Source of the DNA: Stappia taiwanensis
Lineage (GTDB): Bacteria > Pseudomonadota > Alphaproteobacteria > Rhizobiales > Stappiaceae
Length of the DNA stretch: 64,000 nucleotides
NCBI RefSeq assembly: GCF_014635285.1
Contig: NZ_BMCR01000001.1
Span: 434,001 to 498,000, forward strand
Direction: 5' to 3'
The stretch's first letter is position 1; every line of letters starts with the position of its first letter. Below are positions 23,796 to 28,432 of the stretch, in pieces. The position numbers were made by a program, and so were the translations under genes. The notes under the pieces are model-generated. The model saw only the letters and a list, made by a program, of their open reading frames with translations. It did no database searches and was not told the DNA's origin.

Positions 23796-25622
23796 ATGTG
23801 CGGTATTGTCGGAATTCTTGGAAGCCAGGCGGTTGCCGCTCAGTTGGTCGACGCGCTGAAGCGCCTTGAATATCGCGGATATGATTCGGCCGGCATCGCC
23901 ACCCTGGATGGCAGCCAGATCGTCCGGCGTCGGGCCGAGGGCAAGCTGCGCAACCTTCAGGAGAAGCTGGAGCGGGCGCCGCTGGCCGGTAACATCGGCA
24001 TCGGCCACACCCGTTGGGCCACCCACGGCGCGGCCACCGAGCACAACGCCCACCCGCACGCAGCGCCCGGGGTCTCCGTCGTCCACAACGGCATCATCGA
24101 GAATTTCCTCGAACTGCGCATGGAGCTGGAAGGGCAGGGCGCGCGCCTTTCCAGTGACACCGACACCGAAACGGTGGCCCATCTCGTGTCGCGGGAACTG
24201 GCCGGCGGCGCCGACGCACGTACTGCGGTTGCCCGGGTGCTGCCGCGCCTCAAGGGGGCCTTCGCTCTTGCCTTCCTGTTCGAGGGTGAAGAGGATCTCT
24301 TGATCGGAGCCCGGCGCGGCTCGCCGCTGGCCATCGGCCACGGCGATGGCGAGATGTACCTGGGCTCCGACGCCATCGCCCTGTCGCCCTTCACCGACCG
24401 GATCACCTATCTGGAAGAAGGGGATTGGGCGGTCCTGACCCGCGCCGGCTGTGAGATCTTCGATGAGCAGAACGCCCCCGTGACGCGGCCGGTGCAGACC
24501 TCGCGCGCGATGGCGCAGATGATCGACAAGGGCAACTTCCGCCACTTCATGGCCAAGGAAATCCATCAGCAGCCCGAAGTGATCGGCCATACCCTGTCGC
24601 GTTATCTCGATCTGGCTAACATGAAGACCGTGCTTGAAGGTGCGGAAAAGATTGATTTTTCCAAGCTTGACCGATTGATTATTTCGGCTTGCGGGACCGC
24701 CTATTACGCCGGGCTGGTCGCCAAGTACTGGTTCGAGAAGGTCGCCCGCCTGCCCGTCGATATCGATATCGCTTCCGAGTTCCGCTATCGGGAAATGCCG
24801 GTGAAGGCGGGCGATCTGGCGCTGTTCATTTCCCAGTCCGGCGAAACGGCGGATACCCTGGCGGGCCTGCGCTATTGCAAGGGCGAGGGCATGACCATCG
24901 CCGCCGTGGTCAATGTGCCGGAATCGACCATTGCCCGCGAAGCCGATGTGGTGTTCCCCACGGTTGCCGGTCCGGAGATCGGCGTTGCCTCGACCAAGGC
25001 CTTCACCTGCCAGCTCTCGGTGCTGGCCGCGCTTGCGGTTCATGCGGGCTATCAGCGCGGGCATCTGGATGACAAGGGCGCGGCGGAGCTGGTGCGCGCG
25101 CTTGGCGAAACCCCGGGCTACGTCAACAGGGCGCTTGCGCTGGAAAGCGAAATCGAGGCGCTGGCGCAGCCGCTGTCGCGGGCCTCGGATGTGCTTTATC
25201 TCGGCCGGGGCACCAGCTTCCCGCTGGCGATGGAAGGGGCGCTGAAGCTCAAGGAAATCTCCTACATCCACGCCGAAGGTTATGCGGCGGGGGAGTTGAA
25301 GCACGGCCCGATCGCGCTGATCGACGAGGACATGCCGGTGATCGTCATCGCCCCGCATGATCCGATCTTCGAAAAGACCGTTTCGAACATGCAGGAAGTG
25401 GCCGCCCGTGGCGGCAAGATCATCCTTATCACCGATGAAAAGGGCGCGGAGGCAAGCGCGGCGCTCGCCTGGAAGACCATCGCACTTCCGGACGTGCCGG
25501 AGTTCGTCGCGCCAATCATCCACGCGCTGCCCGTGCAGTTGCTCGCCTATCATACGGCGGTCTTCATGGGCACGGACGTGGACCAGCCGCGCAATCTGGC
25601 GAAATCCGTCACGGTCGAATAA
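23796..25622 (+). CDS. glmS: Glucosamine-6-phosphate synthase GlmS
   Basis: A 608-aa L-glutamine:fructose-6-phosphate aminotransferase, the first step of UDP-GlcNAc synthesis. The N-terminal class II amidotransferase domain starts MCGIVGILG with C2 as nucleophile and includes GHTRWATHG. Two SIS sugar-isomerase domains follow (SACGTAYYAG, SQSGETADT, GRGTSFPLAMEGALKLKEIS). The C-terminal KSVTVE is conserved. The last 14 codons and the terminator are repeated at 26619-26704, beyond higBA. No glmS ribozyme is visible upstream. Confidence 0.97.
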   Translation: MCGIVGILGSQAVAAQLVDALKRLEYRGYDSAGIATLDGSQIVRRRAEGKLRNLQEKLERAPLAGNIGIGHTRWATHGAATEHNAHPHAAPGVSVVHNGIIENFLELRMELEGQGARLSSDTDTETVAHLVSRELAGGADARTAVARVLPRLKGAFALAFLFEGEEDLLIGARRGSPLAIGHGDGEMYLGSDAIALSPFTDRITYLEEGDWAVLTRAGCEIFDEQNAPVTRPVQTSRAMAQMIDKGNFRHFMAKEIHQQPEVIGHTLSRYLDLANMKTVLEGAEKIDFSKLDRLIISACGTAYYAGLVAKYWFEKVARLPVDIDIASEFRYREMPVKAGDLALFISQSGETADTLAGLRYCKGEGMTIAAVVNVPESTIAREADVVFPTVAGPEIGVASTKAFTCQLSVLAALAVHAGYQRGHLDDKGAAELVRALGETPGYVNRALALESEIEALAQPLSRASDVLYLGRGTSFPLAMEGALKLKEISYIHAEGYAAGELKHGPIALIDEDMPVIVIAPHDPIFEKTVSNMQEVAARGGKIILITDEKGAEASAALAWKTIALPDVPEFVAPIIHALPVQLLAYHTAVFMGTDVDQPRNLAKSVTVE

Positions 25623-25666
25623 CCGCTTCCAGCAAGAAAAAAACCGCCCGGCGCTGGTCCGGGCGG
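25581..25666 (+). repeat. glmS 3'-end direct repeat, copy 1
   Basis: 86 bp covering the last codons of glmS, its stop and the hairpin CCGCCCGG/CCGGGCGG (25644-25666). It matches 26619-26704 at 77 of 86 positions with no gaps. The two differences within the coding part (GCG/GCA and AAA/AAG) are synonymous. Upstream of 25581 and downstream of 25666 the similarity stops. It is the left boundary of the higBA islet and probably an attachment-like junction. The hairpin here lacks a long T tract in the glmS direction but has one (six or more) on the other strand. Confidence 0.85.
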
Positions 25667-25820
25667 TCGCGGCTTTGGTTCTGACAAAGCAATGAATGTT
25701 ATCGCCAATCTATGCATCCATATGATCTTATTGGATTTTCAAACTTCTCGAGTTTGCGGATCAGCGATCCATAAACCTTTCAGTAGGCAATAGGGAAATC
25801 CAGTCGCTCTGCATCGTCCC

Positions 25821-25881
25821 TTCCCGTTTTGGGAAAAATCTTGACAAGAAGAGCTGATTGGCGTAGTTCCCAATTTGGGAA
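25821..25881 (+). promoter_or_regulatory. higBA promoter with two palindromic operators
   Basis: Two 15-bp palindromes, TTCCCGTTTTGGGAA (25821-25835) and TTCCCAATTTGGGAA (25867-25881), lie 46 bp apart and flank the -35 TTGACA (25841-25846). A TAGTTC -10 at 25864 with 17-bp spacing overlaps the second site. This is the expected layout for autoregulation by HigA or the HigBA complex. Confidence 0.75.
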
Positions 25882-25889
25882 ACTGGCGA

Positions 25890-26192
25890 ATGAGGATCAT
25901 CAAGACCCTTCACTTGCAACACTATGCTCAGAAGCACCCGGAGGTCGCCGCCGCCATTTTGCACTGGATTGCAACGGTCAAAGCTGCGAACTGGCGGACA
26001 CCGCAAGAGGTGCAGGCAGCATTCAGCAAAGCCAAAACGCTTGGCTCTGACCGTGTTCGATTTGAGCTTGCAGGTGGGAACTATCGATTGATAGCGGCAT
26101 TCGACTTCAAGAGGCGAGCGGTTTTTATCAAGTTTATTGGAACTCACGAAGAGTACGATAAGGTCGACGCTCGCGCCATCGCACAATACTGA
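25890..26192 (+). CDS. higB: HigB-type mRNA interferase toxin
   Basis: A 100-aa protein of the HigB family. It starts MRIIKTLHLQHYAQKHPEVA and contains DRVRFELAGGNYRLIAAFDF and the terminal VFIKFIGTHEEYDKV block, the RelE/HigB fold core in which H and Y residues act in ribosome-dependent mRNA cleavage. ATG 25890 lies nine bases after the second operator, so the leader is very short. Toxin before antitoxin is the normal hig order. The cassette is enclosed by duplicated glmS 3' ends, a sign of transfer. Confidence 0.85.
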   Translation: MRIIKTLHLQHYAQKHPEVAAAILHWIATVKAANWRTPQEVQAAFSKAKTLGSDRVRFELAGGNYRLIAAFDFKRRAVFIKFIGTHEEYDKVDARAIAQY

Positions 26193-26203
26193 TGGAGATA
26201 TCG

Positions 26204-26575
26204 ATGAAGCCTAAAATCATCAAGACAAAGGCCGAGTATGAGGCTGCGACGGCTGAAATTGAGCGTCTTTGGGGTGCTGAGGCGAATACCTCCGACGGCG
26301 ATATGCTTGAGCTTCTGATGCTGATTGTCGAGGATTACGAGACCCGGAATTCGGTCGCAATCGATGCTGATCCTGTCAGCCTTCTGAAGGCGCACATGGA
26401 AGCGACCGGACGCACGCAATCTGATCTTGCAGAGCTTATCGGTTCGGCCTCGCGTGCCTCGGAAATTCTGAACCGCAAACGCAGCCTCACCAAAGAGCAT
26501 ATCTTCAAGATCAACACCAAGTGGAAGATGCCCGCCAATCTTCTGATCGCGCCCTATGAGCTTGAAGTGGCCTGA
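26204..26575 (+). CDS. higA: HigA-type antitoxin
   Basis: A 123-aa antitoxin of the HigA branch with the toxin-binding region first (AEYEAATAEIERLWGAEA) and an XRE helix-turn-helix at about residues 70-105 (TQSDLAELIGSASRASEILN). This fusion of an N-terminal YgjM-type region and HTH is usual for this family. ATG 26204 has GGAG six bases upstream; ATG 26192 overlaps the toxin stop and is possible. It would bind HigB and the two TTCCC/GGGAA palindromes. Confidence 0.85.
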   Translation: MKPKIIKTKAEYEAATAEIERLWGAEANTSDGDMLELLMLIVEDYETRNSVAIDADPVSLLKAHMEATGRTQSDLAELIGSASRASEILNRKRSLTKEHIFKINTKWKMPANLLIAPYELEVA

Positions 26576-26618
26576 TAGAGCGATCGGATCGCCGCCAGCG
26601 ATGACATTCACGCGGGGA

Positions 26619-26704
26619 GACCAGCCGCGCAATCTGGCAAAGTCCGTCACGGTCGAATAACCGTCGTCAGCAAGAAGAAAACCGCCCGGCACAGGTCCGG
26701 GCGG
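26619..26704 (+). repeat. glmS 3'-end direct repeat, copy 2
   Basis: 86 bp, 77 identical to 25581-25666. It still encodes the last GlmS residues (DQPRNLAKSVTVE) and stop, and it retains the terminator hairpin. It is not preceded by a glmS frame. It is the right boundary of the higBA islet and probably marks where glmS ended before the insertion. Confidence 0.85.
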
Positions 26705-26714
26705 CTTCTTTTTT
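26682..26714 (+). terminator. Terminator at the islet right end
   Basis: CCGCCCGG and CCGGGCGG around a 7-base loop, followed by CTTCTTTTTT. It is a strong intrinsic terminator in the rightward direction and lies 14 bp from the end of the convergent cysteine-rich gene. It is inside and just beyond glmS repeat copy 2. Confidence 0.85.
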
Positions 26715-26727
26715 ACGCTCCTGGTCG

Positions 26728-28257
26728 TTACTGCGCGGCGGGAGCCTCACCGGAACCGGCTTCGCCTGCGGATGTGTCCTCAGGCTCCGGGCACAGCAGG
26801 CCGAGCGACCCGACGCTGATGCAGGACTGGCACCAGGTGATGCCCTGGGCCTCCGCCCGTTCCTGCAACTGGGCATCGTCGAGCCCCTCGGGCGGCGGGA
26901 TGCAAGCACGCCCGCACGGCTCCACCGATGCCCCTTGCGCGGTCAGCAGCGTGTAAAGCTTGCCCGTCGCGCATTGTGCACGGTCCGGTGCGAACTCTCC
27001 CAGTGCAGAGGGATCAGCCGGGACAGGGGCAGGGGCCGGCGTCGAGGCGTTGCCGGCGTCATCCGCAGGCGTGCTTCCCTCGCTGTCATCCGGCTTGCTG
27101 CCATCGGCCCCATCATCGGCAGGCGGCGCGCCTGCATCCTCCGGCTGACAAGCCTTGAACAGGGCCGCCAGGGTTTCCGGATCGGTGTAGGGGACCCTCG
27201 CGTCGCCGAGACCGGCAGCGGAGCGGAACTCCTCCCAGGCGGAGCGGGTGCGCCGGCCGGCCAGGCCGTCGACCGTTCCGGCGTTGTAGCCGGCGGCGTT
27301 CAGGCAGGACTGGATCCAGGTGATGTTGTCCTGCGGGGTCGGGCGGGGCCGCTCGGGGGCACAACCGGCGCCATAAGGCCGGTACCCTTCAGCGCAGACA
27401 CAGCGCCCCTGGTTCGCCGAATAGACGAAGGGGAAGCTGCAGGCCCGGCTGTCACGCCGGACGCATTCACCACCCTCGACCACGTATCCGGACGGACAGA
27501 TGCAGCCGCCGGCGGAGGGGGAATACTGCCATGGAGCAATACACGCCGGCGGGGGCGCGATCGGCGGAATCGGGACGGGCAGAATGCACCGACGCTGGCG
27601 TGCCGAATAGACATAAGGCAGCCGGCAAACCACCGGCGGACGCGGCCTCACGCAGCGGCCATTGCGCAAGACGCGCGGCGGGGCACAGACCACCGGCGGG
27701 CGCGGCATCACGCAGCGGCCGTTGCGCAAGACGCGCGGCGGGGCACAGACCACCGGCGGGCGCGGCATCACGCAGCGGCCGTTGCGCAAGACGCGTGGCG
27801 GGGCACAGACCACCGGCGGACGCTGGGGCCTCACACAGCGACCGTTGCGCATGACACGCGGCGGAGCGCAGACCGCCGGCGGACGCTGGGGCCTCACACA
27901 GCGACCGTTACGCAAGACGCGCGGCGGAGCACAGACCACCGGCGGACGCTGGGGCCTCACACAGCGACCGTTGCGCATGACACGCGGCGGAGCGCAGACC
28001 ACCGGCGGACGCTGAGGCATCACACAACGGCCATTGCGCATGACACGCGGCGGAACACAGACGGCGGGCCGCAGATCCGGCCGGATATCGGGAAGGTTCG
28101 GGCGGAAATCCGGCACCTGGGCCTGTGCGGAGCCAATGGCAAGCAGGGACGCGAGCAAGGCAAGGCATGCGCACAGAAGCCATCCGGCTCGGGGGGCGAT
28201 CCGCTCTCGGTGTCGGTCCGGCGCCGATCCGGGGGTGTCTGGGCCTCTGATGAACAT
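26728..28257 (-). CDS. Secreted Cys/Pro tandem-repeat protein with PG-binding-like domain
   Basis: A 509-aa protein with a long signal peptide (WLLCACLALLASLLAIGSAQ). About residues 60-205 are seven near-identical units of 20-21 residues, VVCAPPRVLRNGRCVRPQRP type, each with two cysteines, then one degenerate unit. A cysteine-rich linker (CICPSGYVVEGGECV, CSFPFVYSANQGRCVCAEGY) follows. Residues about 311-355 (ITWIQSCLNAAGYNAGTVDG onward) look like a peptidoglycan-binding-1 domain. The rest is an acidic Ala/Pro linker and a C-terminal cysteine-rich block. ATG 28257 has GAGGTGAG upstream. It is an envelope protein of unknown job, possibly disulfide-rigid. Confidence 0.75.
   Translation of the reverse strand: MFIRGPDTPGSAPDRHRERIAPRAGWLLCACLALLASLLAIGSAQAQVPDFRPNLPDIRPDLRPAVCVPPRVMRNGRCVMPQRPPVVCAPPRVMRNGRCVRPQRPPVVCAPPRVLRNGRCVRPQRPPAVCAPPRVMRNGRCVRPQRPPVVCAPPRVLRNGRCVMPRPPVVCAPPRVLRNGRCVMPRPPVVCAPPRVLRNGRCVRPRPPVVCRLPYVYSARQRRCILPVPIPPIAPPPACIAPWQYSPSAGGCICPSGYVVEGGECVRRDSRACSFPFVYSANQGRCVCAEGYRPYGAGCAPERPRPTPQDNITWIQSCLNAAGYNAGTVDGLAGRRTRSAWEEFRSAAGLGDARVPYTDPETLAALFKACQPEDAGAPPADDGADGSKPDDSEGSTPADDAGNASTPAPAPVPADPSALGEFAPDRAQCATGKLYTLLTAQGASVEPCGRACIPPPEGLDDAQLQERAEAQGITWCQSCISVGSLGLLCPEPEDTSAGEAGSGEAPAAQ
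27629..28069 (-). repeat. In-frame 60-63 bp tandem repeats
   Basis: Seven tandem units of 60 or 63 bp code the cysteine/proline repeats of the surrounding gene. Units 27661-27720 and 27721-27780 differ by one base. The high identity implies recent unequal exchange or slippage, so unit number probably varies between strains. They are coding and in frame, which argues against any CRISPR reading. Confidence 0.85.
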
Positions 28258-28432
28258 TCTTCTCACCTCTCGCTTACCTGCTTTGCATGACTCCAACGCA
28301 CGTTCCTGATGGTCATCGCGCCGAGGCTTCCATCCTGACGATTGTCAGCCATCGTGCCGTGACCCGCGTCACAGCGTCTCACAAGAGCGTGATTTTTGGT
28401 AAACGAACTGCGCGGAAAACTTCAGGCCCGCG

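Follow-up and report, generated by a model that had tools for sequence, protein, structure and literature searches.

A higBA toxin-antitoxin islet inserted at the 3′ end of glmS in Stappia taiwanensis, between two copies of the glmS tail

Toxin-antitoxin pairs are distributed patchily across bacterial chromosomes, often without a visible vehicle, and tyrosine-recombinase genomic islands are known to insert at the 3′ ends of genes. Here we describe a 952-bp islet in Stappia taiwanensis (RefSeq assembly GCF_014635285.1, contig NZ_BMCR01000001.1), in which a HigBA-type toxin-antitoxin operon lies between two copies of the tail of glmS. The islet was studied within a stretch of 64,000 nucleotides (contig positions 434,001 to 498,000), hereafter called the window, to which all coordinates below refer. 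With HigBA type II operons the islet shares a toxin gene placed first, a short helix-turn-helix (HTH) antitoxin and palindromes before the toxin gene. A HigB-like first component and a HigA-like HTH second component are also found in the PD-Lambda-2 system, which consists of three components, the second being an Xre-peptidase fusion, according to its description (PMC9519451). The second protein of the islet, of 123-127 aa, differs in being without the C-terminal peptidase part, and no third gene precedes the right-hand copy of the glmS tail. The islet and its boundaries comprise the following features:

23796 to 25622, forward strand: glmS, intact, 608 aa, assigned from its open reading frame and NCBIfam TIGR01135 (glmS, 778.7 bits); it ends in the left repeat copy.
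25581 to 25666, forward strand: left 86-bp repeat with the last 13 GlmS codons, the stop codon and a hairpin that has no forward T-run; probably native.
25667 to 26618, no strand assigned: islet body, 952 bp, 51% GC (guanine plus cytosine), not found in 86 other genomes of the family.
26619 to 26704, forward strand: right 86-bp repeat, a truncated glmS tail with stop codon and hairpin; probably arrived together with the islet.

The direct repeats at the end of glmS, noted in the first-pass annotation of this DNA, were confirmed: they align over 86 nt without gaps, are identical at 77/86 positions, with a longest perfect run of 21 bp, and differ at positions 21, 24, 46, 47, 48, 49, 59, 73, and 75. 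A similarity search of the whole genome (4.42 Mb, 20 contigs) returned two full-length matches, the remaining matches at E up to 1 being short pieces, and no third full copy was found on the chromosome. The DNA upstream of the right copy is unrelated to glmS, and this copy is a truncated tail. Each copy was said to hold GlmS codons, a stop codon and a terminator hairpin; this is correct for the codons, the stop and the hairpin, which is rich in G+C, with the reservation that the left copy has no forward T-run. The two coding differences, GCG/GCA and AAA/AAG, are indeed both synonymous. The further conclusion that each copy had been under selection as a glmS end is weakened, because the left copy, still the working glmS end, is the one that deviates at the AAA/AAG site, which leaves a single coding change that is informative for the right copy.

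The proposal that an insertion had duplicated the end of glmS is borne out by related genomes. A single glmS tail was observed in 13/13 other genomes of the genus examined, and in 11/13 of these loci the gene for a cysteine-rich protein lies downstream of glmS, within a 1.5-kb flank in which it was not found in L007 and L014. The closest relative (G003, hereafter the sister) has an empty site with a single tail at the junction of glmS and the cysteine-rich gene, as had been anticipated. Its identity to the window is 93.6% to the left of the islet (7,107 alignment columns) and 93.5% from 27626 rightwards (6,404 columns); immediately beside the islet (26619-28063) it is 88.7%, with 0.72 at the low-complexity stretch 27019-27118. 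Islet DNA was present in 0/86 other genomes of the family, save for one partial match of 40 bp (G029), and the GC content of the islet is 51.2%, compared with 64.2% for the window. Insertion of the islet into the end of glmS is well supported by the single tails and the empty site in relatives together with this foreign composition, and none of the relatives examined carries it. The islet is thus a real case of one insertion of foreign-looking DNA, which has left a well-preserved scar at the terminator of an essential gene.

The cargo of the islet consists of two genes:

25890 to 26192, forward strand: higB toxin, about 100 aa; PF09907, PADLOC PD-Lambda-2_A, PHROG 5734.
26204 to 26575, forward strand: higA antitoxin, about 123 aa (open reading frame listed from 26192); HTH_3, PADLOC PD-Lambda-2_B.

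As suggested earlier, the cargo is a toxin-antitoxin pair. HigB matched the Pfam family HigB_toxin (PF09907) with an E-value of 2.7e-26 and HigA matched HTH_3 with an E-value of 8e-5, and the gene order, with the HigB-family toxin followed by the HTH antitoxin, fits the layout of a HigBA type II system. Neither protein had a match in NCBIfam at E 0.001, and none of the four overlapping open reading frames of the islet had a match in Pfam. PADLOC labels the pair PD-Lambda-2 A and B; HigA covers only positions 1-119 of the 402-position B model and, with two genes only, we rejected an assignment of the islet as a PD-Lambda-2 system. For higB, the ATG at 25890 was preferred over the TTG at 25875, since the sequence MRII occurs there in two relatives and the second of the palindromes described below covers the TTG. 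The start at 26204 was preferred for higA, and the length of HigA is 123-127 aa depending on the start chosen. Judged from its sequence the higBA operon looks intact, and neutralization of the toxin is predicted. An inverted repeat, 12/13 complementary, lies just inside the two edges of the islet:

25693 to 25705, forward strand: left arm, TGAATGTTATCGC, 13 nt, 26 bp inside the left edge.
26598 to 26610, forward strand: right arm, GCGATGACATTCA, 13 nt, 8 bp inside the right edge.

Its score was reached by 3-4/1000 shuffles, a figure which is optimistic as the repeat was first spotted by eye.

Two palindromes precede higB:

25821 to 25835, forward strand: palindrome TTCCCGTTTTGGGAA, likely HigA operator 1 (putative).
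25867 to 25881, forward strand: palindrome TTCCCAATTTGGGAA, likely HigA operator 2 (putative).

The pattern TTCCCNNNTTGGGAA has two sites in the window, both before higB, and none in shuffled sequences. The shorter form TCCC-N(3-6)-GGGA occurs before higB in 21/30 loci (L060-L089, this locus and 29 relatives) vs 3/238 length-matched control stretches taken from these loci, which is good evidence that the operator is conserved and the operon intact; adding the locus from Devosia brings the count to 22/31. The palindromes are likely to be the predicted HigA operator, and the count of 21/30 suggests that this putative operator is common to the whole family.

Relatives of the antitoxin were detected at E 1e-15 or better in 38/297 genomes of the order, the present genome included. 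A scan of the genome collection with HigB gave five loci, the best of which, from Devosia geojensis, encodes a protein 63% identical. Plasmids contributed 311 records with an antitoxin relative, every one below 60% identity, and two loci at 49% were obtained from the viral contigs scanned with HigA. At the DNA level, the islet had one match of 86 bases in plasmids and no match in phages. In the locus from D. geojensis (L056, 7986-8760), higBA is flanked by a stop codon on one side and a terminator-like hairpin on the other, and an operator palindrome comes just past the stop; in our impression, the gene upstream resembles the biotin-carrying end of a carboxylase.

In order to decide which of the repeats is native, the copies were compared with the single tail of the sister. 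Of the nine diagnostic positions, the sister shares eight with the left copy and one with the right, and the changes unique to one copy number eight in the right copy vs one in the left. Five columns separate the left copy from the sister, equal to the median for 1,391 windows of 86 bp in the flanks; for the right copy the figure is 10 or 11 columns depending on gap placement, and 9.8% of the 1,391 windows reach 11. On these counts the left copy would be typical host DNA and the right copy imported or fast-changing. We lean toward this assignment, the basis of which is 86 bases and one close relative. The claim that the end which completes glmS today had come with the insertion is therefore probably wrong. 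A longer imported tract to the right of the islet was considered and rejected, as there is a dip in identity beside the islet, yet a relative-rate comparison with eight outgroups gave no consistent excess of host-unique over sister-unique changes, or the reverse, in this DNA.

The right-hand boundary is formed by a terminator and a convergent gene:

26682 to 26714, forward strand: terminator consisting of a hairpin and CTTCTTTTTT, the sole forward-strand terminator between 25400 and 26900; overlapped by a reverse-strand terminator.
26728 to 28296, reverse strand: gene for the cysteine-rich repeat protein, convergent, with peptidoglycan-binding domain PF01471; native flank by the relative-rate comparison.

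In the terminator scan, a forward site was found at the right copy only and reverse-strand sites at both copies, three in total, compared with a mean of 1.4 (standard deviation 1.6) in shuffled sequences. The hairpin of the left copy is followed by TCGCGG, has no forward T-run and scores on the reverse strand only. If the left copy is native, this places the insertion point behind the hairpin of the glmS terminator and ahead of its T-run, and transcription of glmS may continue into higBA. Another member of the genus (L005, G013) has about 200 bp of extra DNA at this junction, situated between two terminator-like hairpins, as if the glmS terminator tolerates insertions. Within the cysteine-rich gene, 27629-28062 consists of seven tandem copies of a 63-bp unit, and a gap of 60 columns against the sister indicates that the copy number probably differs.

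The first-pass annotation had further suggested a search for larger, integrase-bearing elements at the same site. None were found, and neither 397 genomes of the order nor the viral contigs retrieved yielded another truncated glmS tail. Of these genomes, 251 gave any match to the tail, with two places scored per genome, and absence in the other 146 is uninformative. At least two matches were obtained in 14/397 genomes, including our own (G000), and the other 13 were re-examined. In eight (G123, G154, G204, G219, G374, G416, G445, and G459) both tails end long glmS coding stretches and were dismissed as paralogs, and in three (G043, G342, and G452) what matched a second time was part of a hairpin or a short segment that does not translate into a GlmS tail. 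The last two have the look of an attachment site, with tails 157 bp apart in G388 and two contigs starting in the same tail in G383; in our judgement they are assembly-broken paralogs, since further glmS loci are present and the copies lie at contig ends or beside N. Within the family, where up to ten places were scored per genome, the coding part of the tail matched twice in G000 alone. The viral contigs gave 22 loci with an exact 17-mer of the tail, none of them glmS, and 56 loci with a degenerate 20-mer, 15 of which were flagged by a loose test; six are real glmS, with coding sequence extending back to the gene start or the edge of the locus, and no truncated tail was among them. One viral contig (L176, IMG/VR 2199352012_000035) begins within the 3′ end of a glmS whose product is 79% identical to GlmS of the window; in the 5.2 of 35 kb examined, a protein that matches PHROG families and an S1/P1 nuclease come next. 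Two others (L171 and L186, IMG/VR) apparently hold the same complete glmS, with neighboring genes that are Mu-like-phage-like by impression only.

Self-comparison of 35 higBA loci and two viral loci for bracketing repeats revealed strong repeats in our own locus, L086, and L069. The repeat of L086 (spacing 1,010 bp) was discarded as a precedent, as it belongs to a dispersed palindromic family with 85 matches in its genome. In L069, higBA is accompanied by 42-bp direct repeats, hairpin-like and palindromic, with a spacing of 914 bp. Weak pairs were observed in L059 (33 nt, E 0.001), L077 (31 nt, E 0.009), and L154 (41 nt, E 0.003).

The best explanation, which we put forward tentatively, is that a horizontally acquired higBA operon was inserted once by recombination between an incoming and the chromosomal glmS tail. 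The operon would have entered the glmS terminator behind its hairpin and before its T-run, as a unit of ~1,038 bp, made up of the 952-bp islet and a second, foreign 86-bp glmS tail, now the right copy; the left copy and everything beyond the right copy would be the host's own DNA. The likeliest route would be a single recombination between the tail on incoming, probably circular, DNA and that of the chromosome, and because the shared tail served as the address for insertion, glmS would have stayed whole. The left hairpin, severed from its T-run, would terminate glmS transcription poorly, allowing glmS to read into higBA, and the joint transcript would be ended by the right hairpin together with the native T-run. 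The operon is probably repressed by HigA through the TTCCC-N5-GGGAA palindromes.

Several observations weigh against this explanation. Were the right copy wholly foreign, recombination would have to have taken place in the final 11 shared bases, beyond diagnostic position 75; 11 bases is short for RecA-type recombination, and the longest perfect run is itself 21 bp, which speaks against plain RecA exchange. A donor tail matching the right copy from end to end was not found in the 86 other family genomes (the best being the sister, 87%), in plasmids (longest match 65/86 positions) or in phages (longest match 42 positions). Later decay could account for the excess of change in the right copy: four of its eight unique changes are adjacent and possibly one event, and a gapped alignment lowers the count. 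The 13-nt inverted repeat close to the islet ends would instead agree with a unit defined by a recombinase, and the data comprise one insertion and one close relative.

A tyrosine or serine recombinase may instead have acted here, with the glmS tail and its terminator serving as attachment site and the enzyme working in trans or its gene since lost, so that the islet would be a non-autonomous remnant. A repeat-bounded unit at the 3′ end of a gene left whole and the inverted repeat just inside both edges agree with this, as do eight PF00589 matches and one resolvase elsewhere in the genome, and the hairpin arms around a 7-base loop resemble what we take to be the layout of a core site. However, the would-be crossover bases in the loop (positions 73 and 75) differ between the copies, and under classic geometry the left copy would be the imported one, where eight of the nine diagnostic positions say otherwise. 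No recombinase gene (PF00589 or PF00239) was detected within or beside the islet or anywhere on the 837-kb contig, which extends the earlier remark that the islet has no integrase, and the search of the 397 genomes, with its two candidate places per genome, gave no other truncated tail. This origin is possible and, on balance, somewhat unlikely.

Duplication in place, in which an 86-bp staggered break at the glmS terminator was filled in while foreign higBA was captured, the right host copy having since decayed, needs no donor tail, consistent with the failure to find one in family genomes, plasmids, and phages. Change is concentrated in the right copy, as in a redundant copy, but its eight unique changes exceed the ~2.9 expected since the split from the sister (Poisson P 0.010; 0.17 when the four adjacent changes are taken as one event), and the dead coding half has changed at 1/42 positions vs 7/44 in the non-coding half (Fisher P 0.058). 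We consider duplication in place unlikely. Still less probable, and distinctly doubtful, is that the 1,038-bp unit is a recombinase-free mobile islet, which loops out between the glmS tails as a circle and re-enters related genomes at glmS; if true, its universal address would be the conserved glmS tail with the terminator hairpin, and its own toxin-antitoxin pair would hold it in place.

To our knowledge, duplication of glmS is not part of the Tn7 route, and the edges of the islet are without the TGT...ACA ends that we take to be typical of Tn7. Tn7-like transposition downstream of glmS, to which only the adjacency of islet and glmS points, can hardly be the origin, as the earlier annotation also held, since Tn7 inserts downstream and leaves glmS intact (PMC4046053), whereas here an 86-bp stretch including 13 codons is duplicated and neither the products of higB and higA nor the four overlapping open reading frames match a Pfam transposase family.

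This locus is a single case in which the arrival of one toxin-antitoxin pair has left a scar with its entry point visible. The duplicated gene tail and terminator kept the essential glmS whole, and the newcomer higBA now probably shares the glmS transcript. In full-text literature, searched by titles and the starts of abstracts and with subscription journals mostly outside the search, neither an integrase element in the glmS tail nor a higBA islet of this kind was found, and we make no claim to a first report.

Compared with Tn7 and Tn7-like transposons at attTn7, the islet is similar in its position downstream of glmS and different in its duplicated glmS tail, its lack of Tn7-type ends and the absence of a transposase family match. 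The likeness to tyrosine-recombinase islands is in the direct repeats that contain the 3′ end of a gene, the host gene left whole, and the empty sites in relatives. The islet differs from these in being only 1 kb, in having no recombinase gene and no second such element among the genomes searched, and in that its left copy looks native rather than imported. The higBA of D. geojensis, unlike the islet, has no bracketing repeat in its 16-kb locus, and what sets the present operon apart from HigBA type II operons is its place between two copies of the glmS tail.

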